Shown: piece by piece, positions 7,575 to 35,234 of the stretch
Numbering within the stretch: the first letter of the stretch is position 1
How the letters are laid out: every line of letters starts with the position of its first letter
Assembly: GCA_021234155.1 (NCBI GenBank)
Contig: JAJEKV010000080.1
Span: 1,286,182 to 1,350,181 of the forward strand
Length of the DNA stretch: 64,000 nucleotides
Origin: Isoetes taiwanensis
Taxonomy: Eukaryota > Streptophyta > Lycopodiopsida > Isoetales > Isoetaceae
Direction: 5' to 3'
The notes under the pieces: model-generated
Told to the model about the DNA's origin: nothing
Databases searched by the model: none
What the model saw: the letters and a program-made list of their open reading frames with translations, nothing else
Made by a program: the position numbers and the translations under genes

Positions 7575-7578
7575 TATA

Positions 7579-7602
7579 GGGTAAAAGAAAGCTAGGGTGT
7601 CT
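7579..7602 (+). repeat. Left terminal inverted repeat of the giant transposon
   Basis: The repeat starts GGGTAAAAGAAAGCTAGG and continues GTGTCT. It matches the right end (34588-34611) base for base over 24 bp. Immediately inside lies a near-perfect palindrome at 7611-7639 (arms TGCCCTTACATTAT and ATAATGTAGGGCA). Confidence 0.9.
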
Positions 7603-8868
7603 AAAAAAAATGCCCTTACATTATGTATAATGTAGGGCATGTAGGCACCCGTTTTTGTTATTTTTTTGAATTTTAGTTAGTTGGGATATGCAATGATTAG
7701 GAATAGCCACGTCAGCAATTCAAAATTATGAGTGGCAGTGGCAACCAGAACGGACCTTCATTGCAATTTTTCGGAGGGAGATTGCGAAGTGTTTCTTGTT
7801 TAGGAAAAAAATTTGCCGCCGTTCCAATTTTTTGTGTTTGTGAGTGATCAACGAAGTAATTCGACTGTAACTATTCTTCTTCCTCGAAATCCTTGCCCAA
7901 ATCCAAGCAATGGACGCCTTTGCCTCCCGGAAGTCACCCAGATTAAACAAAAATTTGAAAATGGTCGATTCTAGCAAGAAAGCCGAGAAAAAAGGAACCA
8001 GGGCCAAAAAGAAGACTTATTTGTGAAGAACCCGCTGTTGTGGAAGCAAAGCATGTAAGATGTGTCAATGCAGATGAAATTTTTCCAGATTTACAACAGA
8101 TAATGGACGAGCAGTGGGGGCCCAAAGAGATACGGGGGTTCAAAGAATCTAGCGTGAAGCCAGAGTGGGCCGAGAACTTCTACAAACATTATGAAATTGT
8201 TTTTCGTAAGCGGGAGGTCACAAATCGCCATGTACCTGAGTACTTTGCTCTGCATTCGCCCTTCAATTGACAGGTAAAAAAGTAGATTGGGATACTTTTA
8301 AAGTTTTGGCCAAAGATTTGGCAAAGGGAGGAGCAAAAGAATCTGCTATTACAGAAGAAATTGGGACCTCTAAATCCACATCCAAGGTTCCTAAATTTCA
8401 GCAAGGATTTTACCCTAAGGAAGAGCTTGAATTTGCGTAAACTCTCAAGCCAGTTGTCATGGAGAGTTAATTAGCAAAGACATCCAAGGTTGAAGAACCG
8501 AAAATTCATTTGGCGTAATTACGTGACAATATAAATAAGATTTCGGGAAGAAAGGATGCACATGAAGAGGACCTAGCACGGATACAAGAAGACATCAATA
8601 GTGTTCTCGATGACGCCAAGCGTAATAAGAGAGACATCAAGACGTGGTAGCGTGAGGTTGACCTTTTGATGAGGGATAGAACCGGGAAGGAAGAAATATC
8701 AAGAGAATTCAGGAGCCATTAGAGAAAGCCATTCGGAAAAGGAGTTATGTGAAAAGAGGATTGCGTAACTTGAGGAGGCTCACAAAGTTCGCTTTGAGTG
8801 TCGCAGACGGCTTGATGATATGCATAAGCATTCGGCAATGATTCTCCCTTCAGCCCAAAACAAGCTTA

Positions 8869-9081
8869 GTGATCTCTCCAGCTGAAGAAAAATTCATATC
8901 TGTGCATGGATATGTGTTTTGTAGTAATGGCTTTGCTAATAATGAACCTATCCTAGTTGCTCCATGCGAGCATTCATTTCATATCTTCTGTTTCTCATAT
9001 TCTATTTCTGCTGGACTATCCTGCCCAAGAGCATGCAAATGGGATGAAAACATTTCAAAGATCTTGGGTGTGTACACTGGA
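8869..9081 (+). CDS. RING-like zinc-binding exon
   Basis: The frame contains ILVAPCEHSFHIFCFSY followed by LSCPRACKW. The spacing C-x-H-x2-H-x2-C ... C-P-x2-C resembles the second half of a RING or U-box-like zinc module. An upstream pair is not obvious, so the fold is uncertain. The exon ends at 9081 with donor GTAAGC. The phase joins the exon at 10183 to give TGELQSAKKTTEQK. The intron between (9082-10182) carries a hAT-like MITE. Confidence 0.45.
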
Positions 9082-9382
9082 GGTAAGCAGTATTTCATGA
9101 TTTATGTTTAATTTGCTGCACCCAGGATTACTGCAATGTAGAATCCATTTACATGTAGAATCCATTTACATGTAGATTGCTGCACTTAAGGTTTTGCTAC
9201 AGCATGTAGGAGTGTACTGGTTATTTTATACTTATAGTTCCATGCCTTGCATGTCATACATATATGTGTTTCTTACATACATGCTGTACATTCACAGTGT
9301 AGGGTCCTAGATGTAGAACTTAAATACATAAAATTAGGAGTTGTGTACTGAGTTTTGTGGCAGAACATTTAGAGGTATTTTA

Positions 9383-9957
9383 CAATGTTGTTAAGTACGT
9401 CAAAATCCGTACGTTTAAAAAACGTTTTTTAAGATTTTTTGAAGATTTTTAAAATTTTTGAAAAAAATCTTTAAAAACGTATTTCATATAAAATACGTTA
9501 AAAATCTTTAAAATCCTTAAAATCCTTAAAAATCCTTAAAAATCTTTAAAAATCCTTAAAAATCCTTAGATTGTAATTTTTTTTATCTAAATATATGACA
9601 TTCTTGAAGTTATTTATCTTTATGTATAAAATTCTTATACTTCTTAACCTCTATAATAATATTTTTCTGAACTTTCTTAAGAGTTGCATAGCAAAACAGC
9701 TATGATATCTTTATAGTTGAACTTAATAGTTCTAGCATAAGCTTCTGATTTACTTGTTGACATGCTACGTCTTATAACTTGTAACAAAAATGTGCATTTT
9801 AACAGTGGCAAATATGTCCAATAAAGCAGTGCAAAGAATGTGTAATTTTTTTATTTTTTATTTTTTGGTCATACCAAATCATAAAAATCCTTTAAAAAAC
9901 GTGAGGATTTTTATAGTTGTTGCCTAAAAATAAAAAACGGGTTTTTTAACAACATTG
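9383..9957. mobile_element. hAT-like MITE in an intron of the left-arm gene
   Basis: The 575-bp insert has terminal inverted repeats starting CAATGTTGTTAA and is flanked by a perfect 8-bp target duplication, GTATTTTA (9375-9382 and 9958-9965). An 8-bp duplication is characteristic of hAT elements. The interior is AT-rich without a coding frame and includes a tandem run of AAAAATCCTT-type units at about 9495-9580. Confidence 0.9.
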
Positions 9958-10182
9958 GTATTTTATGTAATGTCTGATGTGTACATGTGCATACATTGGA
10001 GCACATTCATGTACATTACATGTACATTCCATCTAGATAAACAGCTGTTTACATGTGTATGTACTCAAAGTACTTGAACGTAGATCAGTTCTAGTAATAT
10101 GTACAGCTATTGATATGTACAGAACAGTTAGAGACTGATTAGTTTGAGACTGATATCTGACTGTTATGTGATTTATTTTCAG

Positions 10183-11034: not shown

Positions 11035-12107
11035 TTCTCGAATCTGCACCATATGATGCCTTCTTTGAACCGAATGATGAAGCTCAAGAAGGCAAGGATT
11101 TTCCTGTGATCTTTGCACGAAATGGAGTGTTATTTATTTGAACAAGATGTCTTTGGACATGAATGTGGGGAAAATTTTCCAACCCGCATGTGGATATGTA
11201 TGCGTGTAATTGGACTTTGAACTTGTTCATTTGTATGTGTAAGTCAAGTTAGTAATTTTATCCTTTTCAACTTGTTATAGGTGCCCGCAGCTTCGTGTTC
11301 CGTGATGATAAGAAGGCCGACGCCCGGTTCTTCCCAGGGACAACTTCATGGAATTTGCAAAGATGGACCAAGGCAAGTTTAAAAAGATAAATCTATGGCA
11401 GCCTCCGAGCGTGGAAGAGATATTGTAAAGGTAGCTCTTACAGGGGATAAATGGGCTGAAGTACGATGGATCATGATTCCAATGCTATGTAGAGTTCTTG
11501 AACATCACACTTTGGCCATCTTCAACATGGCACTTACTAAGAGTAAGAACACCATCAACATTCGGATCTTCAATTCGCCGAGGACATTGACATTGACATG
11601 CTTGCACTTAAGAGGTATTTTGTATTTCACATCTCCTTTTATTAATATTGAGTGGATTGGATACCATGTTAGCAAACTTCTTTCATTCATTTGCTACAAA
11701 ATAGATCCTGGTCTTTTGCGTGCTCCACATCCTCACTATGGCACGCTGGTTGTGTCGAAAGTGTCCCACTTTTTGAAGACAAAATCCTTCACCGGTTGTG
11801 AAGATTCATAAGTGTCCACAGCCAGAAAGATGGGGATTCATGTGGCCTCTATGTTGCGGCTTATATGCGAAGTTTGTAGACACAATCGCGTGTGTGGTAA
11901 AACTACCAATGTGAGTGTCTCACTTCTTTTGTCTTGCAAACAAATGGTTTTTAATACTTATTATATAAGTATTGTTGTCACATTTGCAGATTACCCGAAA
12001 CTGGTTCTTGCCAAAGTATACGGAGGATCGTCGTGATGTTCTCATCCAAGCACTACTTCAGGAGTTAGACCACATTCACATCGCACCCGAAACCATTAGA
12101 CCACCCG
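11035..12107 (+). pseudogene. Ulp1/C48 cysteine-protease-like region
   Basis: Segments resemble the SUMO-protease-type C48 peptidase fold found in many plant DNA transposons. IMIPMLC...EHHTLAIFNM (from about 11,470) matches the strand-and-histidine motif. IRIFNS stands where the catalytic Asp is expected, here Asn. DGDSCGLYVAAYM (11,829-11,867) matches the catalytic cysteine motif D-x-x-C-G. The Trp usually after the His is absent. A later exon, 11,990-12,107 (ITRNWFLPKYTEDRRDVLI), has good splice sites and joins the FCP1-like exon in phase. The pieces lie in different frames, so at least two frameshifts have accumulated. The assignment rests on motifs only. Confidence 0.55.
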
Positions 12108-12269: not shown

Positions 12270-12958
12270 GTGTACAGAAAAGGTTGATAGTGTTTGATAT
12301 CAATAATGTTTTGGCAAAACAAATACATAGGACTTTGGTATCAGATGATCAGCTAGTTGGAAATTATGACATAATAGGCAAGAAAGTGTTGTTTTTAAGG
12401 CCCCACCTAGATGAATTCCTGGAATTTGTATTTGAACACTTTGAAGTAGGAATATGGTCATCAATAGCTCCATGGAACCTATCAAGAGTAGTGGATAAAA
12501 TCTTCACAATGACGCAGATAAGGGACTTAAGGTTCACCTTTGATGGAAGCCATTGTTTGGAGCTGCCTTTCCGGATTGCAGCATATGAAGACAAACCTTT
12601 GTATCTGAAGCCAATTGAGTTTATATACGAGAAGTATCCAGACAGGAATGACAGCAACACACTAATAGTAGACGACTCCGAGTACAAGATGCTCTTCAAT
12701 CCCAACGAAAATTGCATATGCCCACCTTCATGGCAGGAAAGTGATGTTGAAGACACAGGTCTCTTGACACTTCTGAAACCATGGCTAGAGGGTTTGTTGA
12801 TAGCACCAGACCTGCAACAGTATGTGAAGCAGAATCCTTTACGCAATCCAACCGATGTACTAACAACAGTTGTCTGGGGGCAAATGCTTTCAGAGGGCTA
12901 CAAGGACAGAGATGGCATGTCCAGGCTATGGACAAGCTGCAAGAAAGTAACATATTGA
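12270..12958 (+). CDS. FCP1/NIF-type HAD-like phosphatase domain exon
   Basis: One long exon (acceptor ...atatcag, stop TGA at 12956) encodes a domain of the FCP1/NIF HAD-like family, which includes RNA polymerase II CTD phosphatases. Seen in order are IVFDINNVLA (nucleophile loop, D-x-N rather than D-x-D), RPHLDEFLEFVFEHFEVGIWSS, DGSHCLELPF, KDxP-like DKPLYLKPIEF, and SNTLIVDDSEYKMLFNP with the DDS-x-x-K acidic motif. A plant class with D-x-N-G-L-L at the nucleophile is known and this protein resembles it. Loss of the general acid Asp suggests reduced or altered catalysis. The exon joins 11990-12107 in phase (RPPG/VQKRL). It is the best preserved part of the left arm. Confidence 0.75.
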
Positions 12959-12989
12959 AACAGCAGAATAGTATGTACTGGCTTCACAT

Positions 12990-13830
12990 CGGCTGTGACC
13001 AGATTTCACACTGACCCCAATTTTTGGTCCACAGTTGTTTTTTAGTTGTACGGAAGTGTTGTTTTATGCCAAAAACAATACCAAAATGGCCCCAAAAGTC
13101 CACGTGGCCCGTTTATCCGGATTTGCACAAAGAGACAGTGATTTTTTGGCAAAAACATTCCACTGTGGTTTTTCTGGCAGCTTTTTGTTTTTGATCAACG
13201 TGTCCTTTTTTTCACTATTGTTTTTCACGAACTTTTGTCAACGTGTGGTTTTTTCTTGACTGTTGTTTTTTGGAGGAGCCACGCGTTGTTTGTATTCCAA
13301 AAAACACATGTAGGTTTGAATATTAATACGTGGAAAATTGAAAAAGAATAGGCTTTTTTTCCCTTTTCAATGTGTGTTGTTTTGTTTTCTCCACTTGTAG
13401 TTCTTTAAGTTAACATTGTTTTCACAAAAGAAAATACGTAATATCTAAGAAATCCACATGTATTATTTTAGAATAATTGTTGTTTTCAAATGTTGTTTTA
13501 CTACGACAATATGTAGTTATTAGATATATCTTTTTTTTCTATATGTATTATGTTTTTTCTTTACATGTTGGTTTTAAAAGTTATCATTGTTTTCTTAAAA
13601 AACAATACGTAGTTTTAAAGAAACCCACATATAGGGAACATTGTTTTCCTTGATTTGATATGTAACTATTAAGAAGTAGACACGTTGTTTCTTAATAGAA
13701 TAGAATAGAATACATTTATGTCCCTTGTGCCGTAAGGCCCCTGGACTTGTGTAGCATGGGCGAGCTCCCTAAAAGGGTGCTACTAGCACATCACGTTGTT
13801 TTAATGTAGCCTTTTCTGAAGGCTGACTTT
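12990..13830 (+). repeat. 3' module of the left arm (T/G-rich, TTTTGGTCCACAGTTG)
   Basis: Just after the FCP1-like stop comes CACACTGACCCCAATTTTTG then GTCCACAGTTG. The same block occurs at 30,195-30,245 (minus strand, after the transposase gene) and at 49,845-49,905 (plus strand). It is followed by a T/G-rich tract with recurring TGTTGTTTT and ACATGTAG words up to the LINE-B insertion. It may be a shared 3'-end/termination or central repeat region of this transposon family. Confidence 0.6.
13691..13791 (-). mobile_element. SINE-like (short retroposon) insert, 101 bp
   Basis: The insert is flanked by a perfect 10-bp duplication, CACGTTGTTT (13681-13690 and 13792-13801). Read on the minus strand it ends in a TATTCTATTCTATTCT tail, a short tandem 3' tail as seen in some SINEs and LINEs. 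It contains GGGGCCTTACGGCACAAG before the tail. It is probably a SINE or a heavily 5'-truncated LINE copy. Confidence 0.8.
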
Positions 13831-14223
13831 TTTTTTTCCTTTAATACCAGCACCCCGCTTTACCTCGGCTTCTTGGCCGTGCAGTGATGCGTCGTTATCA
13901 ATCAGCTTTTAGCTGAGCAATTTGTGTGAGGCTATATGACCCGTATTGTACAGATCATATTACAAGCCCTCTTTCACCGTGTGTACCTCTCTAATCCGGT
14001 CATCATTCTTTGGATCGATCTCGCCGGATCCCGTAACGATTCTCATCATCTTCATCATCCCGTGGATTGGTTCCCCACTTTATATTTCTATATACGCCCC
14101 GATGTCCCCATAGATCGGACGCCAAGTTAATCATGTGGTTTTCATCCTCTATTCCCCCCGCCACAAATTCTCGTGATATCCCGCCCCTCCCCGTCTATCC
14201 CTCTCCACCGCCCTTTTCGATTC

Positions 14224-15990
14224 TTAGATCGTGACTTCCCATCCCCGACCGACCAAGTATGTCCCTTCGTTTCTTCCCCAATATGTTATCGGTACACCCG
14301 TGTCCCATTTGTTGGTCGGGTTAAAACTTGTATGCGAGCCGCCTGTCTTGGGTCTCAGATGTCTCTGTGACCATGCTCTTGTCGCTATGTCCGCCCACTC
14401 CTCATTCCACTGCTCTTCTTCTATCAGGTTACTCAGGTTTAGTCCCATCTGCCTGGTCCATGTTGCCACCTCTCTTAACCATCCAGTGCCTTCAAGGATG
14501 TGTGATTTTGCTGATTCGGTGATTGCAATGCTGGACAGTTTCCCTTGGATGTCTCCAGCGTTGTCTCTGAGCAGGTATCTTATGGTTCTCTCCCATGCTC
14601 TCACTTCCATCGGCCTTTGCCCTGTTTCGAGGACCATGATTTGCCGCTGGCGTGTTTGTTCTTACCCCAATTTCGCCTGTGCCATTGTCTAAAAATTCCT
14701 TCCCCGCTTTTCCCAGTTTCTTTTTACATTTAAGCCTCGCCCCCATGCTTACGCCTCCGCATAACCGGGTGGTGGCTATCGCTGCACTAAATAGGTAACA
14801 TTTGATGTCCCAATCAGTTATTCGACTTCTGTTACAGAAGTTTTTCATGTTAAAGTAACTTCCTATAGCTGATTGGAATCTGGCGTTAGCTCCTTTGGCC
14901 CATTTCCCTGTGCCATGTGCATCATAACCTAGATATCTGTATTCTATTGTTGTTTTTGCTAGGTTCACTGTTAGCCCTGTATCTTCACAAAATTGTTCCG
15001 CATTTTTGAGCAACTGCATTCCTTTGTTTTTGTTGCCATCATACTAAGATCGTCAGATATAGCATTATTGGTACCTTAGTGTCTCCCAAAGTGTGGGGGG
15101 GCATACTCGCCCCTTGCTGATCCGTTATGTATCCCCTGTAGTGCATCTATGTATATTCCAAAGCGAGTTGGGGATAACGGGCATCCCCGCTTCACACACC
15201 TGTGTCACATATTATCGGCTGTCCTTCCCGCTCCATCTTAGCATACACCTTGTGGTACAGTCTTTTGCGATCGATCCTACCATGCTTTCTGGGGCTTGTA
15301 TATCCATCGGTCTTTTTAGCAGCTTCTCTCTGGGATCAGACAAACGCTTTTCTGAAATCTACAAAGCAGCAGATTATTTTCTTTCCATGCGCTTTGTTCT
15401 GCTCTATTAGTATCCGAAGGGTCACGAGATGATCTGTGGTTGAGTGCTCTGGTCTGAACCCAGCTTGCCCTTGTGCTCTCACATTTCCTTCCTCTGCCCA
15501 TTTCTTTAGTTTGTTATCCAGTACCTTTCCAAACCATTTTGCGAAAATCGAGCTTACCATTATCGTCCTATAGTTCCCTGGATCTTTTCTATTCCCCGCT
15601 TTATGTAGGGGTATGACTCTGTTGTATGTCCATCCGTCTGAGCCCCAGATGTATGATGCCATTAAAAATGTCATTGCCTGCGCCAATTTCTCGTCTTAAA
15701 CAAGATTTCAGCAATTCCACGGTCAGGCCGTATAAATCTGGTGCTTTGTGATTAGCCATCTTGTTTAGGGCTAACATTACTTCCAACATATTGAAGCATG
15801 GTTTGTCCGGGTCATGCTGTATTGGTATTGGTACCCGGTGGCGTTTTGTCTTATATAATTTGTCTAGATATGTCTCCCATCCCTCGGTTCCAATGTCATC
15901 TTGTTCGTCCCTTGCTTTTACATTGCTACCCCCTCCTTTGTTTTTGAATCCTCCGAATCTTCGGGCTGTTTTCTCGCCAGTTTTTCCCAT
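14224..15990 (-). pseudogene. LINE-B reverse transcriptase, multiply broken
   Basis: RT motifs are spread over several frames. Around 15.9-15.6 kb lie NKMANHKAPDLYGLTVELLK (block with K-A-P-D). Around 15.6-15.35 kb lie RVIPLHKAG, NYRTIMVSSIFAKWFGKVL, GQAGFRPEHSTTDHLVTLR and CCFVDFRKAF. The region of the catalytic box reads as a degenerate SDD near 15,045. The thumb-like region QFCEDTGLTVNLAKT follows at about 15.0 kb. Many frameshifts and stops show an old, dead copy. Confidence 0.8.
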
Positions 15991-16340
15991 GTACCATTGG
16001 TGTCAGAAAGGTGTTATTGTATCTTTTCTTCTTTAGTAACCTTATGTATGTCTGCCTTCTCTTCTCGGTATGTCTCCCCTCCCCTTATGCTTTCTTAATT
16101 TCCTCTTGTGTTCTCTCGTTTCGTCATCATACCATCTTGAAGCTGAATGCCCCTGTTCTTCCTAATTTTGATCCTTCTCCCAAACACATCTGCTGCTACC
16201 CTTATCATTATGTCATTGAGGGTATTCCCATTATCAATTGCATTGTGCTCCCCCCAATCCCATTTTCCCATTTCCTCCTTGATCATTTGGGTAAAGGTTT
16301 TGCAGATCTTTCACGGAATTGAATTCTTACCCCGTCTTTG

Positions 16341-17120
16341 TTATCCTTCTTTATTTCTGTGCCATCCTTTTGTGGCCTCATCCAATCTAAATGTTAGTTT
16401 GATCGGTCTATGGCTTTCCCTTTTCCTAGTCGGCCATTCCTGTAGCATTAGCCCTTCTATCTTTTCCGCTGCTTGGTCGCTCAAAATTATATAATCCACT
16501 ATGCTCTTACCATGTGAGTTTTGGCTCGTAAAACCTCCCGATCCCCTCCATTTTTTCGTGCCATTAGCTATGATCCCCCCCGTTGTCGCGTGCGGGACTT
16601 CCAAAGAATAGCTCACCTAGCGTTGACCTCAGCCTTATCTTCTCAGATCCCTCGCCATTCCCGTGTCCTCCGTGTACACTATCTGACCATCTTTCTCATC
16701 CGCGTGCGTAATTTGTGCTTGTTCCTGTCTGGTTCTGGCATTTAGATCTCCTACTATAATCATTGGTCCTTGTCCCTTCCATTTCGTTATGTTCTCTCCC
16801 AGTTCCAGCAATTCCAGCTTATCGCTGTTTGGCGGGTAATATGCAATTATCGGGAACTACCTCTTGTTTGTTTTTCAATTGAATATTCAAAACCATATAT
16901 CTTTTATTGATATCCTCGAATGTAACATACATGCATTGTGAGCCGCACTATTCTTTTTTATATAACAAGCCGGACACTGCACTCCCTCTCCCTTTCTTGA
17001 AATCCCCTGTCTTTCCAACATGTAAAAAATTGGTACCCTTCCTCCTCTCCGTAACCTTTTAGTGTTATGCTCCCATGTCTCGCCAAACATATTATGTCGC
17101 GGCCTGTGGGCACCTTCCAT
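16341..17120 (-). pseudogene. LINE-B endonuclease, broken
   Basis: APE-type endonuclease motifs are seen in successive frames: FGETWEHNTKRL and GRVPIFYMLERQG (about 17.1-16.95 kb), PMIIVGDLNAR (about 16,775-16,740), and HGKSIVDYIILSDQA followed by ESHRPIKLTF (about 16.52-16.39 kb). These correspond to the E-T/W, G-D-x-N and S-D-H sites that form the nuclease active centre. The order agrees with the minus-strand LINE layout. Confidence 0.75.
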
Positions 17121-17615
17121 CTTTCTCCATCATCCCATGGGTAGGTGCAGACAGTTCAAGACCATAATGTCACGCTTTTTCCCCAGAGGTTGCTCGCCGG
17201 GTCTCCATGTTTTCTGTGCCATTCCCCATTCTCCTTGGCCTCCCCCTGGTTTTCATTGTCGGGGTTGGCCCTTCGAGCCCTGCTTGATTTGTTCGCTCTT
17301 CGTTTCCCCCGTTTCCGCTTCCTCCTATTGCTCTGTTCTGGTTCCCATCTACCGTGATTGCTCTTAGTGCCTCCCTCTGCATTCTGTTCTCCAGCACCTG
17401 TTGTATGGGTTTCATGAGATGTGAATTTTCCTTCTCTGCTCCCGTTGGTTTTGCTACCCCCTGCAACCCTTCCGTCTGCTCCTGCGGTTGAGTCCCTTGC
17501 TCTCTTACCCTTTTGTGTATGTATACCTTGCCATTCTTGACCCCTGCTTGTATCCCTGCTTGGTTCAGTTCCCTGGCTTTGGCCAATTCCCCCGTAGCCC
17601 CCTGTCTGCATCAGA

Positions 17616-18264
17616 TCATGTTAATGCCTCCTGTACTTTGATTCCATTCCTCAATCTGGATCCCATCCGTAAGATCCTCTCCTTGGTTGCCATGTCCCTC
17701 AATGTCAGGTTTATGTGCCTCGATCTCCCCCTCCATTGGCCCGATCGGAGGGCTTTGACGATGACGCCCCTGTGTTCCTTGAACACCGTCTCTATCACTT
17801 CTGCAGTAACTCGATATATATCCTCATTAGGCCTCTCTGCTATCCCAATTAGCCTAACATCATGTTTAATCTTATTCTGCTCCTCATACTCCAATAAATG
17901 TGGTTTTATCCTATCATATGACTCCCATGCATCCAGCTCAACATTTGATTTCTCTAATTCAACCAACCTTTGCAGGATCTTTGCTTTCTCCTCTTCGATC
18001 TCGTCCATTCTCATTTTGCATTTCCTCGTTCATCTTCTCCACCCCTCCTACTCTCACGTCCATGCTAGTGATGGCTACTTTGTTGCTGTTACAAGTCTCA
18101 GCCAATGCGTTGAGTGCATCCAAGTTCGGGATCTTTGCCTCTAGCCGTTTATCCATTTGTGCCAGAAAGTCCCTAAGGTCTTGTTGACTCACCGGGGCTC
18201 TTGCCGCCTCCAATCTCCTCTGCTGGCTACAGTTGATGCTATCGGCCATCACCCTCATTTGCAA
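17616..18264 (-). pseudogene. LINE-B ORF1-like coiled-coil/RRM-like protein, broken
   Basis: Two overlapping frames encode an N-terminal coiled coil (DLRDFLAQMDKRLEAKIPNL, then MDEIEEEKAKILQRLVELEK) followed by VRLIGIAERPNEDIYRVTAE and RSRHINLTLRDMATKERILR. This resembles the coiled-coil, RRM-like and C-terminal arrangement of L1-type ORF1 RNA chaperones (Transposase_22-like). It differs from LINE-A, which has a zinc-knuckle gag-like ORF1. A Gly/Arg/Lys-rich spacer lies between it and the endonuclease (about 17.15-17.61 kb). Confidence 0.6.
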
Positions 18265-18739
18265 GAGAATCCTGTGCAGAAAGACTTTAAGCAGTGCGTT
18301 CGTGCTAGACTCTTGCTTGTGAAATAACCGTCGTTTCCCCCTAAGACTATATATATTTGCTGCTTCTAAACGGTATTTTTATTGATGATTACCGTTCTGA
18401 TTTGAATTTCAAATTTTAAAATTCAAAATTCAAAAGGCCCTAATTAGTTTCGTCCGTCCCTTTTTATTGTCACTCAGTTCTTTTCGTCCGTTGCCCAAGG
18501 TTGATCCTCTCGGGTTTCTCGAGTCTGAGTGGTTGGGTAGATGCTTGTCTGTATTGATTACGCTAGTATTTTCGTCTGTTCTGAGATTCTGTACCTGCAA
18601 TTTTTGTAGTTCTGTGTTCCTGTATTTCTGTGCATGTATCGTTCTGTTGAGCTGTGCTCGTGCTCCCTAGTCTGTGGTGAGGGGTAAACCCCCCCTTGTC
18701 CATACTTTTCCCCGATCCATGGTGTCGGCAATTTCGTCA

Positions 18740-19120
18740 TCTGGGGTATTCTTCATACCTCTTTAGAAGTCATATATTGTTTACAAATATTGTACCGTTA
18801 GTTATATTGAGTTTTTAGTGGTCCGGGTTACCAGTTGGTGGGTCTAGCCCTCGCTATCCTGGTGTACGGCGGAGGCTTGGCCTCACTGTCCCGTAACTTG
18901 TTCCCGTCCACCTTTTACTCTGTGTTGCCATACATCAGTAATTGAGGTATTCTTCATACCCCGCTGTACAAGTCATATGCCGTTCTCCATGTGTTGATGA
19001 GTTTTTGGTGGTCCGGGTTACCAGTTGGTGGGTCTAGCCCTCGCTATCCTGGTGTACGGCGGAGGCATAGCCTCTCTGTCCCGTATCTTGCCCCGTCCGC
19101 CTTTTACTCTGAAATCCTTT
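18740..19120. repeat. About 190-bp tandem repeats in the LINE-B leader
   Basis: The block GGTCCGGGTTACCAGTTGGT and its continuation occurs at about 18,820 and again at about 19,010. A linked block, GTATTCTTCATACC, occurs at 18,747 and 18,938. The period is about 190 bp and the copies are nearly identical. Tandem monomers upstream of ORF1 are a known form of LINE 5' UTR promoter. Confidence 0.75.
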
Positions 19121-19429
19121 TGTTCTCTGCGTGCTTCTGCGTGTCCTTTCATCAATCTCCCTCTGCTTGTATCTTTTACGGGGCTTGTTATATCTGTCAA
19201 ATTATTCTTGTTCCTTTTCTATCTGTCACTTACCTGTCACCCATTATTTTGTATTTCCCTTATTTTGAGTGTTTTCGTCACCCTTCTCCTCCCGAGTCGA
19301 TATCTCCCGCAATATGGTCCTTTTGTCTATTTTTGCATGGTGTCTTTCCTGTTCCATGTCCCAATGCGGCCCGGCGTCGCCTGTAATATTTTCCTTCCCT
19401 ATGTTTACATCTTCTATCTTCTATCTTCT

Positions 19430-20960: not shown

Positions 20961-20984
20961 CGACAGAGCACCTACATCAAGAAG

Positions 20985-21795: not shown

Positions 21796-22284
21796 AAAGC
21801 AAAAACATTCTCAAAATTTTAAATGATAAAAGGAAAAGGTTATATGCACACCCGAAATAAAACCCGCAATAGCAAAGGTCGAGATTGTAAGAGCTTCAAC
21901 AACTCTCAGTATGTTTTTATATCGAGAGGCCCTGCATGGTAGCACAGCTCCAGATAGCATAGGCAGTGCCAAAACTGTAGTTGCCGAGTGTTTAGAACTA
22001 TTTCCATCCTAAAGTAACAGAAACAGTATAGATGCAGAACAAAATTCTGGAGAAGATTATATGGCTCCGAAAATAATAGCTTGCGTGGAAAGAATTACTC
22101 CTCCTCACATTGGAAGCCCGACCAACTGTTGTGCTGGATCTGCCAATCCTATGAAAACTAGCATTAAAACTGGAGATAATATCGAGTTCTAGAACCCCGC
22201 AGTTTTAACATAAGTAGAAGCAAAAAAAAAACATCTCAGATCTCAAAAATAGAACCAAGGCAGGCAAGCACCGCTCTATAGGCG

Positions 22285-24068: not shown

Positions 24069-26130
24069 CAGGAGATGGACCTCAGAGGCCAGACCCCAGG
24101 AGATGGACCTCAGAAAGGTTGTCGAGGCAGCCTTTCCTATCAGCGCTCCTCTGGGAGGGCAAATGCCAACCCCCCCTCCCCCCCTCCGGGAGCTCAATTT
24201 TCCTATCCGACCGTTGAATCCGTCATTCAAGTAACCTGCTTCGAGCAGGCTCAAAAAAATCCAAGATCCATCCGGGAGAACTTATCACACCACGAAGCAT
24301 TCTGCGGGTTGACCGCATAGAAAACCAAGTGTTTTGTCATTCGGGCAGTACAAAGGCTCTGGAATGGAGATTCGACTTCACCATGTCGTCCGGAATGGCA
24401 AAATTTCCCCAGGGACCAAGTTACATGGTCATTTTGGCAATGAAAGAAACACGAACCCTCTACATAATGGTATTCCGCAGCCACCTCCTAGGCCAATTGA
24501 CTACGAACGTGTTGGACATGAGCTACCTTGGTGCTTCTTGGAGAAGGGGTGGTCTTCTGCCCACGAAACTTGCTCCCCGGGGTAAAGTCGACATTTTGAG
24601 TCCATTGGCAGAGTCAGTTCACAGTTCCGGAGTGGGAAGTTGCCCGTCCGTGGCCAGGGTTCTTTGGGAGAGGACCTTTGGGGCGAACTGCCTCCGAAAG
24701 GTTTTAAAGGTCCATCTTATGGCGTCAACACCCTCCCTCTACGTGATGACATTGTGCAAGATTTTGGTCGAATCTGACTAGGATATAGCCTCCGAAACGT
24801 AAACCCTGTGTGTTGCTAGGTTATTGAAGGGTTTACGTTATGGGGGTCGAGTTTTAGTCGGTTGCACTTGGGTCATGGTTGAGAAGCTGCAATTGAGAAC
24901 ATGAAGCAATAGGAACTGATGGAATGGGGTTTGGAGTTATCCTCCTCCCAGTGTTGCAATTAGAAGTCAAGAGCGCCTTTTGCTGTAGCAAAATTGTTTG
25001 GGATCATTCGGGATGGCCAATAGATCCAAACTCTGTTATTTCAGTTGCCATGGCTCCGCATGTGTGTTTAGCAAAGGCGCACCTAGCTATCCAAGAAAAC
25101 GACCACGTTTTGGCCTCCGAAACGTAAACCCTGTGTGTTGCTAGGTTATTGTAGGGTTTACGTTTCGGAGGCCAAAATGTGATCGTTTTCTCGGATAGCT
25201 AGGTGCACCTTTGCTAAACACACATGTGGAGCCATGTCAACTGAAATAACAGAGTTTGGATCTATTGGCAACTGCAACAGTTCCTATTGCTTCACATTTT
25301 CAACTGCAGCTTTTTGACCATGTCCCAAGTGCAACCGACTAAAACTCGACCTCCATAATGCAAACCTTTCAATAACCTAGCAACACACAGGGTTTACATT
25401 TTGGAGGCCGTATCCTAGTCAGATTCGACCAGGATCTTGCACAATGTCATCACATAGAGGGAGGGTGTTGATGCCAGAAGACGGACCCTTAAAACCTTCC
25501 GGAAGCAGTTCGCCCCAAAGGTCCTCTCCCGAAGGCCCCTGGCCACGGACGGGCAACTCTCCCACTCCAAAACTGTGAACTGACTCTGCCAATGAACTCA
25601 AAATGTCGACTTTACCCTAGGGACCAAGTTTCGTGGGCAGAAGACCACCCCTTCTCCAAAAAGCATCAAAGTAGCTCATGTCCAACACGTTCGTAGTCAA
25701 TTGGCCTAGGAGGTGGCTGCGGAATACCGCTATGTAGAGGGTTCGTGTTTCTTTCGTTGCCAAAAATGACCATATAACTTGGTCCCTGGGGTAATTTCGC
25801 CATTCCAGACGACATGGCGAAGTCGAATCTCCATTCCAGAGCCTTTGTACTGCCCGAATGACAAAACACTTGGTTTTCTACGCGGTCAACTCGCAGAATG
25901 CTTTGTGGTTTGATAAGTTCTCCTGGACGGATCTTGGATTCTTTTGAGCCTGCTCGAAGCAGGTTACTTGAATGACGGATTCAACGGTCGGATAGGAAAA
26001 TTGAGCTCCCGGAGGGGGGGAGGGGGGATTGGCATTTGCCCTCCCAGAGGAGCGCTGATAGGAAAGGCTGCCTCGACAACCTTTCTGAGGTCCATCTCCA
26101 GGGGTCTGGCCTCTCCCCTCTAGTGAGGAA
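24069..26130. repeat. Large palindrome core of the foldback element
   Basis: The two arms (24,069-25,142 and 25,143 to about 26,130) are inverted copies with scattered substitutions and small indels. At the centre is a hairpin with arms TTTTGGCCTCCGAAACGTAA and complement around GTGTGTTGCTAGGTTATTGT. A related hairpin with GTAAACCCT/AGGGTTTAC recurs inside each arm (about 24,795 and 25,365). Open frames in the arms have no recognisable motif. Confidence 0.9.
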
Positions 26131-26424
26131 GCTGCACAAAGTCCTGGCCTGGTTCGAGTTGGGGAAGTATGTCAGCTCATTAAGTTCTTCAGATCCCTCT
26201 ATTCTATTCCTTGCCAAACTCCTCTACCAAAAAATTCAAAGGTTATCATATTTCTTGCATAAAGTCCTAGTCATCATGTCCATGTCACCATCATCTAGCC
26301 ATGTCACCTAAAATTTGCCAACATCACCCAATGAAAAGACCAAAGATGGACATCTTGGAGCCTTTTTGGCCTAGTCAAAACTTGACCTTGCTTACTTGGC
26401 ATGCCATGTCACCACTTGGGGGTG
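26130..26424. repeat. Linker between palindrome core and array 2
   Basis: A unique linker of about 290 bp is present on the right side (for example AAAGACCAAAGATGGACATC). It is found again, inverted, at 56,918-57,200 in the second copy. It is absent on the left side, where array 1 abuts the core directly at 24,068. Confidence 0.8.
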
Positions 26425-29400
26425 CCTAGGTGGCATGCTTGAGCCTAGGTGGCATGCCTGAGCCACCTTGGCATGTTTAAGCCTGGGTGGCATGTTGGAG
26501 CCTGCGTAGCATGCTTGAGCCACCTTGGCATGTTGGAGCCCACGTGGCATATTTGAGCCACCTTGGCAAGTTGGAGCATAGGTGGCATGTTAGAGTCTCC
26601 GTGGCATGTTTCAGCATGTTGGAGCCTAGTTGGCATGTTGGAGCCACCTTGGCATTTTTGAGCCTAGGTGGCATGTTTGAGCCACCTTGGCATGTTGGAG
26701 CCCACGTGGCATTATGGAGTCCACGTGGCATGTTTGAGCCTAGGTGGCATGTTGGAGCCTAGGTGGCATGTGGGAGCCACCTTGGCATGTTTGACCCTAG
26801 GTGGCATGTTTGAGCCACCTTGGCATGTTGGAGCCCACGTGGCATTATGGAGTCCACGTGGCATGTTTAAGCCTAGGTGGCATGTTGGAGCCTAGGTGGC
26901 ATGTGGGAGCCACCTTGGCATGTTTGACCCTAGGTGGCATGTTTGAGCCACCTTGGCATGTTGGAGCCCACATGGCATGTTGGAGCCTATGTGGCATGTT
27001 GGAGCCCACGTGGCATGTTTGAGCCACCTTGGCATGTTTGAGCACGTTGGAGCCTAGGTGGCATGTTTGAGCCACCTTGGCATGTTGGAGCCACCTTGGC
27101 ATGTTGGAGACCACGTGGCATGTTTGAGCCCACCTTGGCATGTTTGAGCCTAGGTGGCATGTTGGAGCCCACGTGGCATGTTGGAGCCACCTTGGCATGT
27201 TTGAGCCTAGGTGGCATGTTTGAGCCACCTAGGAATGTTGGAGCCTAGGTGGCATGTTGGAGACCACGTGGCATGTTTTAGCCACCTTGGCATGTTAGAG
27301 CCTAGGTGGCATGTTGGAGCCTGCGTGGCATGCTTGAGCCACCTTGGCATGTTGGAGCATAGGTGGCATGTTGGAGCCCGGGTGGCATGTTTGAGCACGT
27401 TGGAGCCCTAGGTGGCATGTTTGAGCCATTTTGTCATGTTGGAGCCTAGGTGGAGCCCACGTGGCATGTTGGAGCCCACGTGGCATGTTTGAGCCACCTT
27501 GGCATGTTGGAGCCTAGGTGGCATGTTGAAGCCCATGTGGCATGTTTGAGCCACCTTGTCATGTTGGAGCCTAGGTGGCATGTTTGAGCCACCTTGGCAT
27601 GTTGGAGCCCACGTGGCATGTTTGAGCCACCTTGGCATGTTTGAGCCTAGGTGGCATGTTAGAGCCACGGTGGCATGTTGGAGCCTAGGTGGCATGTTTG
27701 AGCCAACTTGGCATCTTTAAGCCTAGGTGGCATGTTGTGAGCCACCTTGGCATGTTGGAGCCTAGGTGGCATGGTGGAGCCCACGTGGCATGTTTGAGCC
27801 ACATTGGCATGTTGGAGCCTAGGTGGCATGTTTGAGCCCACCTTGGCATGTTTGAGCCACCTGGCATGTTTGAGCCTAGGTGGCATGCTGGAGCCTAGAT
27901 GGCATGTTTGAGCCACCTTGGCATGTTCGAGCCTAGGTGGCATGTTGGAGCCACCTTGGCATGTTGGAGCCTAAGTGAGCCTGCATGGCATGTTTTAGCC
28001 TATGTGGCATGTTTGAGCCACCTAGGAATGTTGGAGCCTAGGTGGCATGTTGGAGCCCACGTGGCATATTTGAGCCACCTTGGCAAGTTGGAGCATAGGT
28101 GGCATGTTGGAGCCAGCGTGGCATGTTTGAGCACGTTGGAGCCTAGGTGGCATGTTTGAGCCATTTTGTCATGTTGGAGGCTAGGTGGCATGTTGGAGCC
28201 ACCTTGGCATGTTTGAGCCTAGGTGGCATGTAAGAGCCACCTTGGCATGTTGGAGCCCACGTGGCATGTTGGAGCCCACGTGGCATGTTTGAGCCACCTT
28301 GGCATGTTGGAGCCTAGGTGGCATGTTGAAGGCCATGTGGCATGTTTGAGCCACCTCGTCATGTTGGAGCCTAGGTGGCATGTGTGAGCCACCTTGGCAT
28401 GTTAGAGCCTAAGTGGCATGTTGGAACCACCTTGGCATGTTTGAGCCTAGGTGGCATGTTAGAGCCACGGTGGCATGTTGGAGCCTAGGTGGCATGTTTG
28501 AGCCAACTTGGCATATTTAAGCCTAGGTGGCATGTTTTGAGCCACCTTGGCATGTTGGAGCCTAGGTGGCATGGTGGATCCCACGTGGCATGTTTGAGCC
28601 ACCTTGGCATGTTGGAGCCTAGGTGGCATGTTGGAGCCTAGGTGGCATGTTTGAGCCCACCTTGGCATGTTTGAGCCACCTGGCATGTTTGAGCCTAGGT
28701 GGCATGTTGGAGCCTAGGTGGCATGTTTGAGCCACCTTGGCACGTTTGAGCCTAGGTGGCATGTTGGAGCCACCTTGGCATGTTGGAGCCTAAGTGAGCC
28801 TGCATGGCATGTTTGAGCCTATGTGGCATGTTTGAGCCACCTTGGAATGTTGGAGCCTAGGTGGCATGTTGGAGCCCATGTGGCATATTTGAGCCACCTT
28901 GGCAAGTTGGATCATAGGTGGCATGCTGGAGCCTGCATGGCATGTTTGAGCACGTTGGAGCCTAGGTGGCATGTTTGAGCCATTTTGCATGTTGGAGCCT
29001 AAGTGGCATGTTGGAGCCACCTTGGCATGTTTGAGCCTAGGTGGCATGTTAGAGCCACCTTGGCATGTTGGAGCCCACGTGGCATGTTTGAGCCCACGTG
29101 GCATGTTTGAGCCACCTTGGCATGTTGGAGCCTAGGTGGCATGTTGAAGCCCATGTGGCATGTTTGAGCCACCTTGTCATGTTGGAGCCTAGGTGGCATG
29201 TTTGAGCCACCTTGGCATGTTGGAGCCTAGGTGGCATGTTGGAGCCCACGTGGCATGTTTGAGCCACTTTGGCATGTTTGAGCCTAGGTGGCATGTTAGA
29301 GCTAGGGTGGCATGCTGGAGCCTAGGTGGCATGTTTGAGCCAACTTGGCATATTTAAGCCTAGGTGACACGTTGTGAGCCACCTTGGCATGTTGGAGCCT

Positions 29401-29432
29401 AGGTGGCATGGTGGAGCCCACGTGGCATGTTT
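26425..29432 (+). repeat. Minisatellite array 2 (19-bp unit)
   Basis: About 3 kb of the same 19-bp unit as array 1 occurs in the same plus-strand orientation. It contains higher-order duplications: a block around 26,690-26,830 recurs about 133 bp later, and 27,890-28,400 is similar to 28,690-29,190 with a period near 800 bp. This indicates unequal exchange. Confidence 0.9.
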
Positions 29433-29514
29433 GCACCGGTCCTGCACCCCCTCAAGGAATACAAATCAAATTCTTGATGGTTGTTTTATGCAAAAATAGG
29501 TGTTAAGTAATTGA

Positions 29515-30110
29515 AGTAGTTGAAGTAACTTGTCTTACATGGAATACTAGTATAAGGACATGTGATCGTGCACGTGCATCACATGTAGCAAATCAAGTAC
29601 TCTGTCCTACCACTATAAAGACCCGTGATATGGAAGGATAGGACATGTAGAGAATCAAGTATTCTTTCCTACTTCTATAAAGACATGTGACAATAGAAGT
29701 ATTACACATGTCGTAATTCATGTATTCTTTCCTACAATGCCTTAGCAAATAAAGTACTCTGTCCTACTACTATAAAGACATGTGACATGGAAGCATATGA
29801 CATGTAGAGAATCAAGTATTTTTTCCTACTTCTATAAAGACATGTGACAATAGAAGTATTACACATGTCGTAATTCATGTATTCTTTCCTACAATGCCTT
29901 AGCAAATAAAGTACTCTGTCCTACTACTATAAAGACATGTGAATAGAAGTATAGGACATGTAGAGAATCAAATATTCTTTCCTACATCTATAAAGACATG
30001 TGACAATAGAATTATTAGACATGTAGAAATTCAAGTATTCTTTCCTACAGTGGATTGTATTATAAAATGACATGTCACAATAGAAGAAACTACAAAACAA
30101 CAGTGGATGT
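29515..30110. repeat. Tandem ACATGT-rich repeats, right-arm interior of the giant transposon
   Basis: Units containing TTCTTTCCTACTTCTATAAA then GACATGTGACAATAGAAGTA recur about every 55-60 bp, with a 180-bp higher-order copy (29,640-29,760 and 29,815-29,935). The recurring ACATGT/CATGTAG words match words in the left-arm 3' module. They may be protein-binding or central repeats of the transposon family. Confidence 0.7.
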
Positions 30111-30189
30111 TTTAGTACACTGAAAAAAGAACACCATTATCGAACAAAACCATACCTCCACAAATCCACATGTAGGATTCTTTGAAAAC

Positions 30190-30250
30190 AGGACATGTAG
30201 ACCTACCAAAACTGATGTTTTCAACAGTGGACCAAAAACCGGGGTGAGTG
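30190..30250 (-). repeat. 3' module of the right arm
   Basis: On the minus strand this reads CACTCACCCCGGTTTTTGGT then CCACTGTTGAAAAC. It is closely similar to 49,845-49,905 and, over a shorter core, to 13,003-13,045. In both arms the module follows the 3' end of the arm's gene. Confidence 0.7.
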
Positions 30251-30449
30251 TGTTTTGAATGTAATTTAATGTTAATATAAAACATGAACAACAGACTTGT
30301 ATATATTGGCATCATATCTGATATGATCAGGTTGTATATCTTGTGATATGTAATACAAGAGTTTTTGTCTCCATACATGTTCCACTTTCTGCTTTGTTTC
30401 ATGAATCAAAAGAAAAGCTATTGATATCCATTATAACAGAACAAGTTCA

Positions 30450-30830: not shown

Positions 30831-31090
30831 AAATATGAAAGTTCCTTTGTATAGAACTTAGTCATGTGCACTCAACAATCTCGGTGTAGGCTTGATATAA
30901 GCATGTCATGCACCTCTCGTGGTGATCATATATGTTGTAACGCGCCCCCTTCAACTTATGCTTGACTCTTTGATCGTGAACTTTGCTCCAATTACAGATT
31001 CACTGGTACCAATACTATTTTGTCATCCAACAACTTGTACTTGTGGTTTGTGCCTTGTAGCAGTTGATAGTAATGATCAGCTATAACCCA

Positions 31091-34000
31091 TCACCGCCAA
31101 GCAAGCATTCTATTTCCATAGTCGTCAATCACATCTTCCTCAAGAATATGCATCTTCTTCACGATAGGAGGACTTAAGTATGGAACATTTTCATGATTCC
31201 CCGGAGCAGCAAAAGATGCAAATATGTCTCCAATTTGGAGTACATCGGATAGTTCTTGCTCATCACCGTGCATAAAACCAACTAGCTCTTCTTGTTCGTC
31301 GACACGGGGCGAACTAGGCTCGGTTTTGTGCAGCTTCCACGCACCACAATGCTCGAGATTCTCACATTCTCCCCATCTGAAATTCAAGCAACCATTGCAA
31401 AAACATGACAGGGGATCTATACATGACAAGTGTTGGGTCATTTGGATTAATAGCGGCATACACAATGTATAGCTAGAGTACCGTGCAATGTCTCACAATC
31501 TAAACGAGGGTCCCTGTTAATGTCTTACGCCATCACCTTTCATATGACTCTCGTCCATTTTGCACTTCTTTTGTCTCAAAGAAAGTGCAAGCAGAGTTGG
31601 CACCCAAAATCGGAACACCATTCTCTTTCCCTTTGCTCGCCTCGCTAGGAACCTTTTCTCCAAAGCGACCGCCCATCATGTTCTCCTTTTCCATGGCTCG
31701 AGCCAAAATAATTCCATCAGATCCTAATTTTATACCGTTATAATATTGGGCCACATTCAAATAAAAGGCTCGAGAACACTTAAACCGAAAGCAAAGACAC
31801 CCATCGGACCACATGACATGGTATTTGATGTGGCCAAAACCTTTTGCATCATCCAAATATGGTGCTTCTTGAGTGCAAACTGAACAAAGAAAGCATCATG
31901 CTTCATAACATCGGAAACATACAAATGAACAGTTTTTTTCAGCTCACCATTGACTTTCATCATGGATATATGCACCAGAATAGTTATCTGGTCATTGTTC
32001 CAATGCTCAGACTGAACCTCCCTGAATGGCTGCAAAGTGTAGTTCTCTGCAAAGTCCATTACTGACAAAACAGAATCATCCCTCAAATTTTGCACTGATT
32101 TCTGAATTGTTTTGCTCTCCGCCAACTTGTGAAAAGTTGTGAATAGTGAACTTTGTAAGGTGCTGAAACATCTTGTCAAGCAATGTACCTGGACTCCGCC
32201 AAGAACAAGCTTCAACCTCCTTGAAGTGCCGTTTTGGAAGGTTCGTTCACGTACTTGTAAACTTGCCATTCAATGTTCTCATTCTGCGACTCTTTCTCCT
32301 TAGGACAGATTTGAATATTTTTAGTGCCACAGTTCTGGCACTCTCCCTTGACACAGTCCAAACTATGCCACTCTTCGCCTTCCTTGTCACAGACCGTAGC
32401 TCTCCACATAGCACCAACATTTTGAAATGTTTTAGAAGAAGCTTGGCGGATGCCATTGTTCTCATCTGCACGACAAACACCATAAGAACATGTACAATTG
32501 GCATGAAATTTGTTCTCAGGACGCTAAAAGCTTTTTTCTCAGATAGATCAGCTTGTTCATGCTTCACGCAGTTAAAGATGTGTTCCTCTCTTTCAACCTT
32601 CTCACACACGTAGGCTTAAGCAGCTCGAACTTTTCGATGCTAATCTTCACTTCGGGATGTTCATCTTTGAACATCTCATACAATTCACTCGCAAGGAAAA
32701 AAAAGCGGCATGTATAAGTAAGATATAAATTAGAACTACTTACGAATCCAAAGATGTTGCAGACATTGCATTAGTTCTATGGCATTCAGATCATTATTTG
32801 ATATACATTCAACTACTATACCACAACATCGTACATACCATGTACATGATATGTATAAATGTATAAAGAATGTACTCCAAAGAGTTCCAGATGTACATAA
32901 AAAAGTCAATATGTAACCGTGTAACAGCGATGTTGTCATCAGATTATGAGATGTATGTATTCAATACTTTTCTTATGTAAGGAAGTACATTAAATACTTT
33001 TATGTATCACCCTATCTTTCAAAACTATCTTGAGATCAGGAAAACTTAAGAGGTACTATAATGTACTTGGGAACTACAAAAATCAAGACTATAATAACAC
33101 AGCCTGACTTTCAACACATTTTCTGCCTTATGCCACATTGGATGTAATTGGAAGTACATCCAAGTACTTTTCCTGTTCAACATAGCTCATTCAAGACTTC
33201 CAAGTGTAAAAATATAATTCATCAGAGTTGGATGTACTTCAATGTATACCCTAAACATCCCTTGCATGGAATGCAAATAGGATTACTAAACTTATCCAGG
33301 ATGCACAGAAGCTAGCTTCTATCAAGCTTGCAAAAAAGAGGATTAAAAGACTTAAAACTGACCTGGGGCATGTCCAAAACCGGATTGGAAGTGTCATTTT
33401 TCTTCCCGACATCCCCTCATACTTTGGAGAAGTTTTTTGTGTGGGTTAACCAAAACTCATTTACCAACTGTTTGGTTGATTAGGAAGCATGTCCGCCTGG
33501 GTTGCCTTCCCGCCGGTGCCCACATATTAGCACCTGATAATGACATCCGCTTTCTTCTAATTGCAGCTTTTGTGAGGTTTCTTGCTTGCACTTGAAGAAT
33601 TCTGGAGGCTACTCCTTTTTGCCTGAGTTTTCCATTCTCACCAACAATCATTGATAACAGGGAATGCTTAGCTGCTAATTTATCATTGCTATTTGCTTGT
33701 TTCACTTCCTGCAGACCTTCACGGATATTTTTTAGCATAGTATCCTTCAGAATTGCTTGCGCTGGATTTCCAATGGCAGGTTCAAAAAAGAAGTGCAGCC
33801 TTTCATCCTGAACAGTTTTCACGGGTGAAAGCATGCTAGGGTGTACCATCTAAAGTACTTTTTAGGGAGTGCAAAACTACCCAGAAAAGTACCCAGCACT
33901 AGGTACTGGGAACCTCCATAAATGCCGCAATAAAAAGAAGTTTGAGAGTTAATTCATTTATTTTAGTCTCTAATAGTATTGTTATCCTTCAGTACTATGG

Positions 34001-34523
34001 ATTGGCATGTTATTGACCTTCAATTCAAAAAATTTCAATTGATTTTAATGGAAAGAAAAAACAGAAAGTACCAGTTTTAAAAGTACCCAGTGTAGGTACT
34101 TTTGAGGGTTCCAAAAGTGGTACACCGTAGCATGCTTTTACCCTCACTGCTAAAGCTCTCCTTTGCACAGGACGTAAATCTTGAACCTGATCATATATAA
34201 ATTTACAAATTTCATCAATCTTACGCTTCATTTTCTTTGTCACATTCCCGATATTGCAATCTTCTTGTGCCATTTCTGTTCCTTCGTTGTTCATCATGGT
34301 TCTTGCGTGGTTTAGGGTTAGCTGGAGGAATTCTGGCAAGAAGGAGGGAAATCCTGGAGCTGGGCGAAGTTCTAGCCAGAAAGTGGGAAATTCTCCTAAC
34401 GTTCAGGCGTTTCTTGGAGTGGTTAGAGCGGCGGGAATTGAAATCTGCTTCATGATTGCGTTTTAATTGACGTGGCAAGTAGTTCCGAAAAAAAAGATTC
34501 CATAAGATAGCTATTATGTACAT
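31091..34523 (-). pseudogene. DDE-type transposase of the giant transposon, decayed
   Basis: The gene occupies the right arm. Order on the minus strand: N-terminal part (34,523-34,137), a MITE, RLHFFFEPAIG and a basic region (33,829-33,457), and a Cys-rich zinc-like part CVKGECQNCG (about 32.33 kb). Then come MDFAENYTLQPF and VQSEHWNNDQITILVHI (32,059 down to 31,970), VSDVMKHDAFFVQFAL, WSDGC (31,797-31,811) and a C-terminal tail ending near 31,091. The same chain (C-x-x-C knuckle, MDFAENY, SDGC) occurs in an uncharacterised transposase-like family that I recall from fish and cnidarian genomes. The Asp in MDFAENY and in SDGC would be the first two acidic residues. At least three frameshifts and the MITE make it inactive. 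Confidence 0.7.
33838..34128. mobile_element. hAT-like MITE inside the transposase gene
   Basis: The 291-bp insert has ends AGGGTGTACCA and ACGGTGTACCA (inverted) and a perfect 8-bp duplication, AGCATGCT, at 33,830-33,837 and 34,129-34,136. It splits the N-terminal coding part of the transposase after the segment RRALAVRVKA. The interior has ACTTTT/GTACCCAG words in inverted copies and no coding frame. Confidence 0.92.
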
Positions 34524-34587
34524 ACTGAAAAAACGGTTATGTATTTGAAATGTGATACATCTCTTACTCTACATTTGGCCAAATGTA

Positions 34588-34611
34588 AGACACCCTAGCT
34601 TTCTTTTACCC
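34588..34611 (-). repeat. Right terminal inverted repeat of the giant transposon
   Basis: This is the reverse complement of 7579-7602 with no mismatch. Just inside it is a perfect 16-bp palindrome, ACATTTGGCCAAATGT, at 34571-34586. It differs from the palindrome beside the left end, so homology between the ends is confined to the 24-bp repeat while the palindromic design is shared. Confidence 0.9.
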
Positions 34612-35234
34612 TATATACTGTTGATTGTGACCCCCTGTTCCATTCTCTCCAACTCCCCTTTTAAATATTGAAGTCTGACCCCCTCATGACGGATGCAACC
34701 AATGAGCCCACAGGATTTCAAAAATTTTAATTTACTTTCTACTGCTGCATTTCGAAGAGGCTTACCCACAAACACCGGTTCTTTGTTTGTCAGCAGTTCT
34801 TTTCGCACCTCCTCCCCCACCTGATTTGCATAGTCCAAGATTTGGTCCACTGCCTCCTTCTGACGCTGCAAGGTCCCCACTCCTGAAGATCGCCTGGTAT
34901 TCACCATATCTGCAGTAGAGGTAAGGAAATCCCGAAAAGCCAAGAAATCCTTCACCTTTTCGCCCTTCTCTATCGCTGCTAGGTGACCCGCAATCTCCCG
35001 GATTTGGCTATGTCCCTTCTCACTTAGGGTACGAATGATATTTAGTAATTCTGCATTCCTGGCTTCCCTTTTGTCATTATTCTTTCCCGTCACTGTTGTC
35101 CCATTTTCCCCCAAATATGCCCCTTTCTGCACATTTTCCAATACCAGTCCTGTCTGTCCCAACTGTTGTACATTCCTAGACAACCCTGTCTCTTGTTCCA
35201 CTGTTTTCAACGAGTCTTTTCCTTCTTTTTCCAT
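34612..35234 (-). pseudogene. LINE-A ORF1, N-terminal part
   Basis: The frame starts at ATG 35,234 and runs through a predicted helical region (KEAVDQILDYANQVGEEV) into PVFVGKPLRNAAVESKLKFL and CGLIGC, the start of a DUF4283-like domain. It reaches a stop created by the transposon end. When the 27-kb insertion and one TATA are removed, the next codons are those at 7574 (YWIDFPFF), continuing the same domain. The two halves are therefore one gene split by the insertion. Confidence 0.88.

Follow-up and report, generated by a model that had tools for sequence, protein, structure and literature searches.

Among the described DNA transposons of plants and other eukaryotes, Sola2 elements are characterised by AT-rich 4-bp target-site duplications, short inverted ends (12-21 bp in the examples given) and a large transposase (PMC3627910), and Sola elements are reported from the moss Physcomitrella and from pepper (Capsicum) (PMC9033089) as well as from the ferns Ceratopteris and Azolla (PMC6890710, PMC6786969). 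Ginger elements have termini of the form TGTNR; Ginger1 encodes a Ulp1 domain, and Ginger2 targets RTATAY and generates 4-bp duplications (PMC2836005). A Ulp1-like protease gene is also described beside the transposase in plant DNA transposons of the MULE type, known as Kaonashi or KIU-Vandal (PMC13317346). The window analysed here, a stretch of 64,000 nucleotides from the genome of Isoetes taiwanensis, contains a transposon with likenesses to each of these systems. The genome has 66 matches to the chlorophyll a/b-binding family, which marks a photosynthetic eukaryote, and the DUF4283-type ORF1 of the LINE agrees with a land plant. It is very probable that a cut-and-paste transposon of about 9 kb, equipped with its own transposase and cargo, inserted into ORF1 of a LINE with duplication of TATA and afterwards received three nested insertions. 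The outer element is tentatively filed as a Sola-like cut-and-paste transposon with a 4-bp stagger.

The outer transposon occupies positions 7579-34611 and comprises four blocks of its own, 8,876 bp in all, together with the three nested insertions, as delimited by exact boundaries in the window and by alignment to the copies L051, L052, L053, L055 and L056. End comparison and genome counts define its terminal inverted repeats: the left one (7579-7602, plus strand) is identical in 24 of 24 bp to the reverse complement of the right one (34588-34611, minus strand) and reads GGGTAAAAGAAAGCTAGGGTGTCT, and the two ends diverge beyond these 24 bp. TATA lies directly outside both ends (7575-7578 and 34612-34615) and is identified as the target-site duplication from the flanks, from other end pairs and from empty sites. 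Across the searched genome (1.66 Gb in 1,110 contigs) the 24-mer end has 387 matches when one mismatch is allowed, 199 in forward and 188 in reverse orientation, and the reversed control pattern has 0. Thirty-four end pairs were compared, namely the window, 26 pairs among the listed end matches and seven fetched copies (L057 is excluded from this count, its right end being outside the fetched stretch). The 4-bp flanks are identical in 29 of the 34, where random pairing gives an expectation of 0.6%; the five pairs which lack a perfect duplication deviate by a single base in four cases and by two bases in the fifth. The search for further loci with these ends and a 4-bp duplication, suggested by the initial annotation of this DNA, was thus productive. 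Twenty-six different 4-mers occur among the 29 duplications and therefore TATA in the window is one case and not the fixed target of the family, which makes 4-bp duplications at weakly AT-leaning sites. T is the commonest first base and A the commonest fourth base (14 of 29 each), A or T is present at 82 of the 116 duplication positions, and symmetrised target-site counts gave no strong motif beyond this weak AT lean. Inverted ends on dispersed copies, a duplicated target and empty sites are together the general hallmarks of a cut-and-paste transposon with terminal inverted repeats, and all are present here. Along the 9-kb copies similarity is slightly higher at the ends than in most of the interior, in an alignment from which L055, which carries another MITE copy, and L057 were excluded.

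The outer transposon is located in a LINE that runs on the minus strand. The 3' portion of this LINE (2813-7578) contains the reverse-transcriptase region (an ORF at 2813-5047 and its neighbours) and the C-terminal part of ORF1 with a DUF4283 domain (6086-7578), as found by ORF and domain scans, and its continuity with the sequence from 34616 onwards covers 6001-7578 and is based on 11 other copies. The 5' portion (34616-35607), placed by alignment to other copies, includes the N-terminal part of ORF1 (34616-35234). The LINE match stops near 35594-35607 in eight of the 11 copies, which is probably the 5' end of the host LINE. The insertion is proved by these 11 distinct LINE copies elsewhere in the genome, which align over the predicted empty site and none of which contains an insert; ten have no gap at the site and L020 has a single extra base, and TATA is kept in nine, L019 and L020 being different. 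Three further places (C1013, C1049 and C1061:1968), known from coordinates alone as flank matches overlapping by 2-4 bases, are not part of the 11. Joining the window flanks with one TATA gives a stop-to-stop frame of 704 aa (...TINSI-YWIDFPFF...), whereas a 2-bp duplication of TA would leave 520 aa, the upstream part of which is scrambled. The frame ...(N/G)S(I/L)YWIDF... continues through the site in nine of the 11 empty copies, the exceptions being L019 and L020. The perfect ends and the insert-free copies bear out the proposal of the initial annotation that a DNA transposon with 24-bp inverted ends had split the ORF1 of a LINE, and the alignment across the junction which it had called for likewise agrees with its claims that the two halves become contiguous once 7579-34611 and one TATA are removed and that the duplication is 4 bp and not TA, as do the 29 end pairs with identical flanks. 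Its statement that excision restores the frame holds in so far as the joined frame is that of the site before the insertion, no excision as such having been observed.

Very probably the LINE inserted first, and a DNA transposon of the 9-kb family next entered its ORF1 through a 4-base staggered cut at CAG-TATA-TACTG, by which TATA was duplicated. This family carries the transposase on one strand and, converging with it, RING-like, Ulp1-like and NIF-phosphatase sequence on the other. A 575-bp element, a CACTA element and a 321-bp MITE each entered the outer transposon later, in whichever order. Nothing seen contradicts either the insertion or the nesting.

The transposase gene of the window copy (30887-34402, minus strand) is broken into a core at 30887-32701 and pieces of an N-terminal exon at 33315-33822 and 34139-34402, which were located by tblastn with protein segments of L060, L053 and L058. 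This exon is split by the MITE at 33823-34143, and the window copy is most likely dead because its transposase frame is both interrupted and split by the MITE. Many relatives of the transposase are present elsewhere in the genome, and among the best 150 of 7,292 first-look candidates that were scored, 67 have at least 70% identity and 83 are below. The transposase frame of L060 (435-2324) is intact and encodes 629 aa. The motifs DFAENY (235), WSDG (317) and GKGEHDG (355) are conserved between L060 and L059, the latter a copy nearer to the family in the window, and the two families are 51% identical; judging from this conservation, the three motifs would provide the catalytic D, D and E/D of a predicted DDE/D triad. 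Scans with the 629-aa relative gave matches below cut-off only in Pfam and NCBIfam and none in the PDB at E <=1. In collections of viral and prokaryote genomes, each prefiltered with a pair of short peptide patterns, 58 and 92 stretches with the peptide patterns were obtained, none of which was confirmed by tblastn as a transposase relative.

Sola fits best among the known systems, and the outer element is most like Sola because of its 4-bp AT-leaning duplication. The resemblance is closest to Sola2, with which it shares AT-rich 4-bp duplications (29 of the 34 pairs, with 82 A or T bases among the 116 positions), short inverted ends (24 bp here, where the Sola2 examples have 12-21 bp) and a large transposase, a tentative placement made by description (PMC3627910). 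It differs in its size of about 9 kb and in a second, converging gene set of Ulp1-like, RING-like and NIF-phosphatase sequence, which does not figure in the Sola descriptions compared. The transposase could instead represent an undescribed superfamily of plant DNA transposons, in line with the database scans, in which the intact 629-aa relative matched nothing in the PDB and nothing above cut-off in Pfam or NCBIfam, and with the prefiltered viral and prokaryote collections, which yielded no confirmed relative. This is considered unlikely: AT-rich 4-bp duplications together with short inverted ends match Sola2 (PMC3627910), Sola has been recorded in moss, ferns and pepper (PMC9033089, PMC6890710, PMC6786969), and absence from Pfam does not equal absence from Repbase.

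The Sola-like outer transposon carries its second gene set on the plus strand. The set begins with degraded coding segments of a left gene, coiled-coil and RING-like (8169-9084), which were found by tblastn with L053 and L056 segments, the RING-like Pfam matches in L056 being below cut-off. These are followed by a degraded Ulp1-like (Peptidase_C48) segment at 11243-11952, likewise found by tblastn, with a Pfam match in copy L056 (E 4.6e-4) whose 20.5 bits fall just short of the cut-off of 20.7, and by the open frame of an NLI-interacting-factor-like (CTD-type) phosphatase at 12284-12958 (PF03031, E 8.6e-18). The nearest PDB structures of the NIF-type phosphatase are UBLCP1 and CTD small phosphatase-like protein, and the gene has many genomic copies. 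A phosphatase is listed within 5 kb of the transposase in 31 of the 67 closer transposase matches and in none of the 83 more distant ones, and is convergent with the transposase in all 31; the phosphatase is therefore a regular part of this transposon branch, by which it was perhaps acquired. Both lists consist of about the best 150 matches each and distant phosphatase copies could therefore be missed; for L060, tblastn detected no phosphatase within 5 kb downstream of the transposase. Codon counts indicated no clear purifying selection on the phosphatase among the copies compared, several rows of which are confounded by frameshifts.

The RING-like, Ulp1-like and NIF-phosphatase sequences are probably helper or captured genes. 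By analogy with what is described of Ulp1-carrying Vandal elements (PMC13317346), the phosphatase, Ulp1 and RING proteins may counter silencing or alter transcription. A more far-reaching version of this idea, which is rather improbable, holds that the element would represent a lineage of no described superfamily and that one branch of it would combine its own RNA-polymerase-CTD-type phosphatase, Ulp1-like protease and RING-like protein into a kit against silencing or for control of transcription, comparable to VANC in Vandal. Literature searches returned no paper joining Sola with Ulp1 and none on a CTD phosphatase captured by a DNA transposon, and nothing relevant that ties the NLI interacting factor to a transposase or transposon, the one paper returned being unrelated by its title and the start of its abstract.

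The initial annotation had combined the scattered features of the locus into one giant 27-kb element, a claim that does not survive comparison with other copies. Among the first 100 of the 387 end matches, there are 27 neighbouring plus/minus end pairs within 50 kb, of which 16 span 8.5-10 kb, one spans 5.4 kb and ten span 11.3-32.6 kb. The copies L051-L056 and L058 were picked from visible end pairs and L057 from one end and are not a random sample, so the length of the outer family, about 9 kb, rests on these 27 listed pairs; the ten longer ones could include other long forms of the family. L051, L052, L053, L055 and L056 align to the window in blocks which are interrupted at the same three places, besides which there are smaller gaps, for example two stretches of <170 bp that are missing from L053 and an extra MITE in L055. 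Subtracting the three insertions and their extra duplicated bases leaves 8,876 bp, the remaining 18.2 kb being secondary insertions, and the outer element spans 27 kb today because three other transposons inserted into it later.

The boundaries of all three nested elements are exact and supported by alignment of copies. The first, of 575 bp (9383-9957), has ends CAATGTTGTTAA and an 8-bp duplication GTATTTTA at 9375-9382 and 9958-9965, and by the length of this duplication it is presumably hAT-like. The second is a CACTA-type element of 17.2 kb (13007-30252) with ends CACACTSACCCC...TTTTTGGTCCAC and a 3-bp duplication TTT at 13004-13006 and 30253-30255. Its CAC ends (CACACTGACCCC / CACACTCACCCC) and 3-bp duplication are those of a CACTA (En/Spm) transposon, as the CACAC at its termini also indicates, and its left end is common to many other loci; this likeness concerns a secondary insertion and not the outer element, between whose two converging gene sets the CACTA element sits. 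No transposase family match was obtained in the nine ORFs scanned of the 25 listed with at least 110 aa in 13007-30252. The CACTA element contains a reverse-transcriptase remnant at 15339-15695 (PF00078, E 2.5e-7); a further reverse-transcriptase domain (PF00078, E 3.6e-31) is encoded by a 791-aa open frame at 52945-55320, outside the outer transposon. Two arrays of a 19-bp minisatellite, GCCTACGTGGCATGTTTGA, are also present within the CACTA element (22288-24068 and 26424-29433, with about 94 and 162 copies), separated by a near-palindrome at 24084-26114 whose arms of about 840 bp are 93% identical. Blocks related to the minisatellite recur with their surroundings in inverted orientation at 56-58 kb (minisatellite at 56085-56915), which suggests a second related element.

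The third nested element is a MITE of 321 bp (33823-34143) with ends GGGTGAAAGCATGCTAGGGTGTACC and a 4-bp duplication TCAC at 33819-33822 and 34144-34147, its limits being supported by end counts in addition. Its end aligns to the end of the outer transposon better than all of 5,000 shuffles and has 3,383 genomic matches when up to two mismatches are allowed (control 0). This resemblance of the ends points to the MITE probably being a non-autonomous relative of the outer element, and the genome holds a very large population of such MITEs related to the outer transposon. The same MITE is present in L055 (7963-8285), inverted and at a different position in the 9-kb element, so that the MITE family entered the 9-kb element more than once. 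In L057, where the left end of the transposon lies 311 bases into the locus, the ORF text alone suggests an interruption near that end by a Copia-like retrotransposon (about 1155-5321).

A single giant transposon that mobilises the CACTA element, the satellite and the phosphatase as cargo is a very remote prospect, largely refuted by the left CACTA junction. Among the 40 of 1,340 candidates that were scored, a 200-base query over this junction has a full-length match at the window alone, and the 39 other matches lie on one side of it, in the transposon or in the CACTA element, reaching up to about ten bases over. A shared junction should outrank such one-sided matches, and therefore the 27-kb composite looks private to the window locus; there is no sign among these 40 matches that it ever moved. 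The unbroken 27-kb stretch with a single pair of perfect ends and one duplication would agree with a giant element, as would the end pairs elsewhere that are up to 32.6 kb apart, but a typical copy measures about 9 kb (16 of the 27 listed pairs) and each of the three extra blocks has its own inverted ends and duplications.

Scarcely any credence is given to the outer element being a Ginger2-type (Gypsy-integrase-like) transposon with an RTATAY target and 4-bp duplications, even though the TATA in the window lies in GTATAT as this would predict and Ulp1 domains occur in Ginger1 (PMC2836005). Its ends, GGGTAAAAG, begin with GGGT and not with the TGTNR described for Ginger (PMC2836005), the family has no fixed target, with 26 different 4-mers in 29 duplications, and Pfam scans detected no Gypsy-type integrase domain in the transposase. 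Ginger2 was accordingly rejected and the TATA target at the window site is regarded as coincidental. MULEs have target-site duplications of 8-11 bp, in contrast to the 4 bp of the outer family, whose transposase has no MULE match in Pfam. The remaining candidates can be dismissed briefly: piggyBac and Kolobok target TTAA, which is absent among the 29 duplications, Tc1/mariner elements duplicate TA, where the duplications here are 4 bp and a TA join breaks the LINE frame, and a chance inverted match was considered for the ends and rejected.

The Sola-like outer element is a genuine and fairly ordinary transposon with unusual cargo. The locus as a whole presents a clean and checkable history of nested transposons, the outermost insertion of which is proved by empty sites. 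The 9-kb family is of wider interest, having hundreds of ends in the genome, a transposase that is unnamed in the libraries searched and a phosphatase gene that travels along with it; annotation could mistake elements of this sort for host genes.
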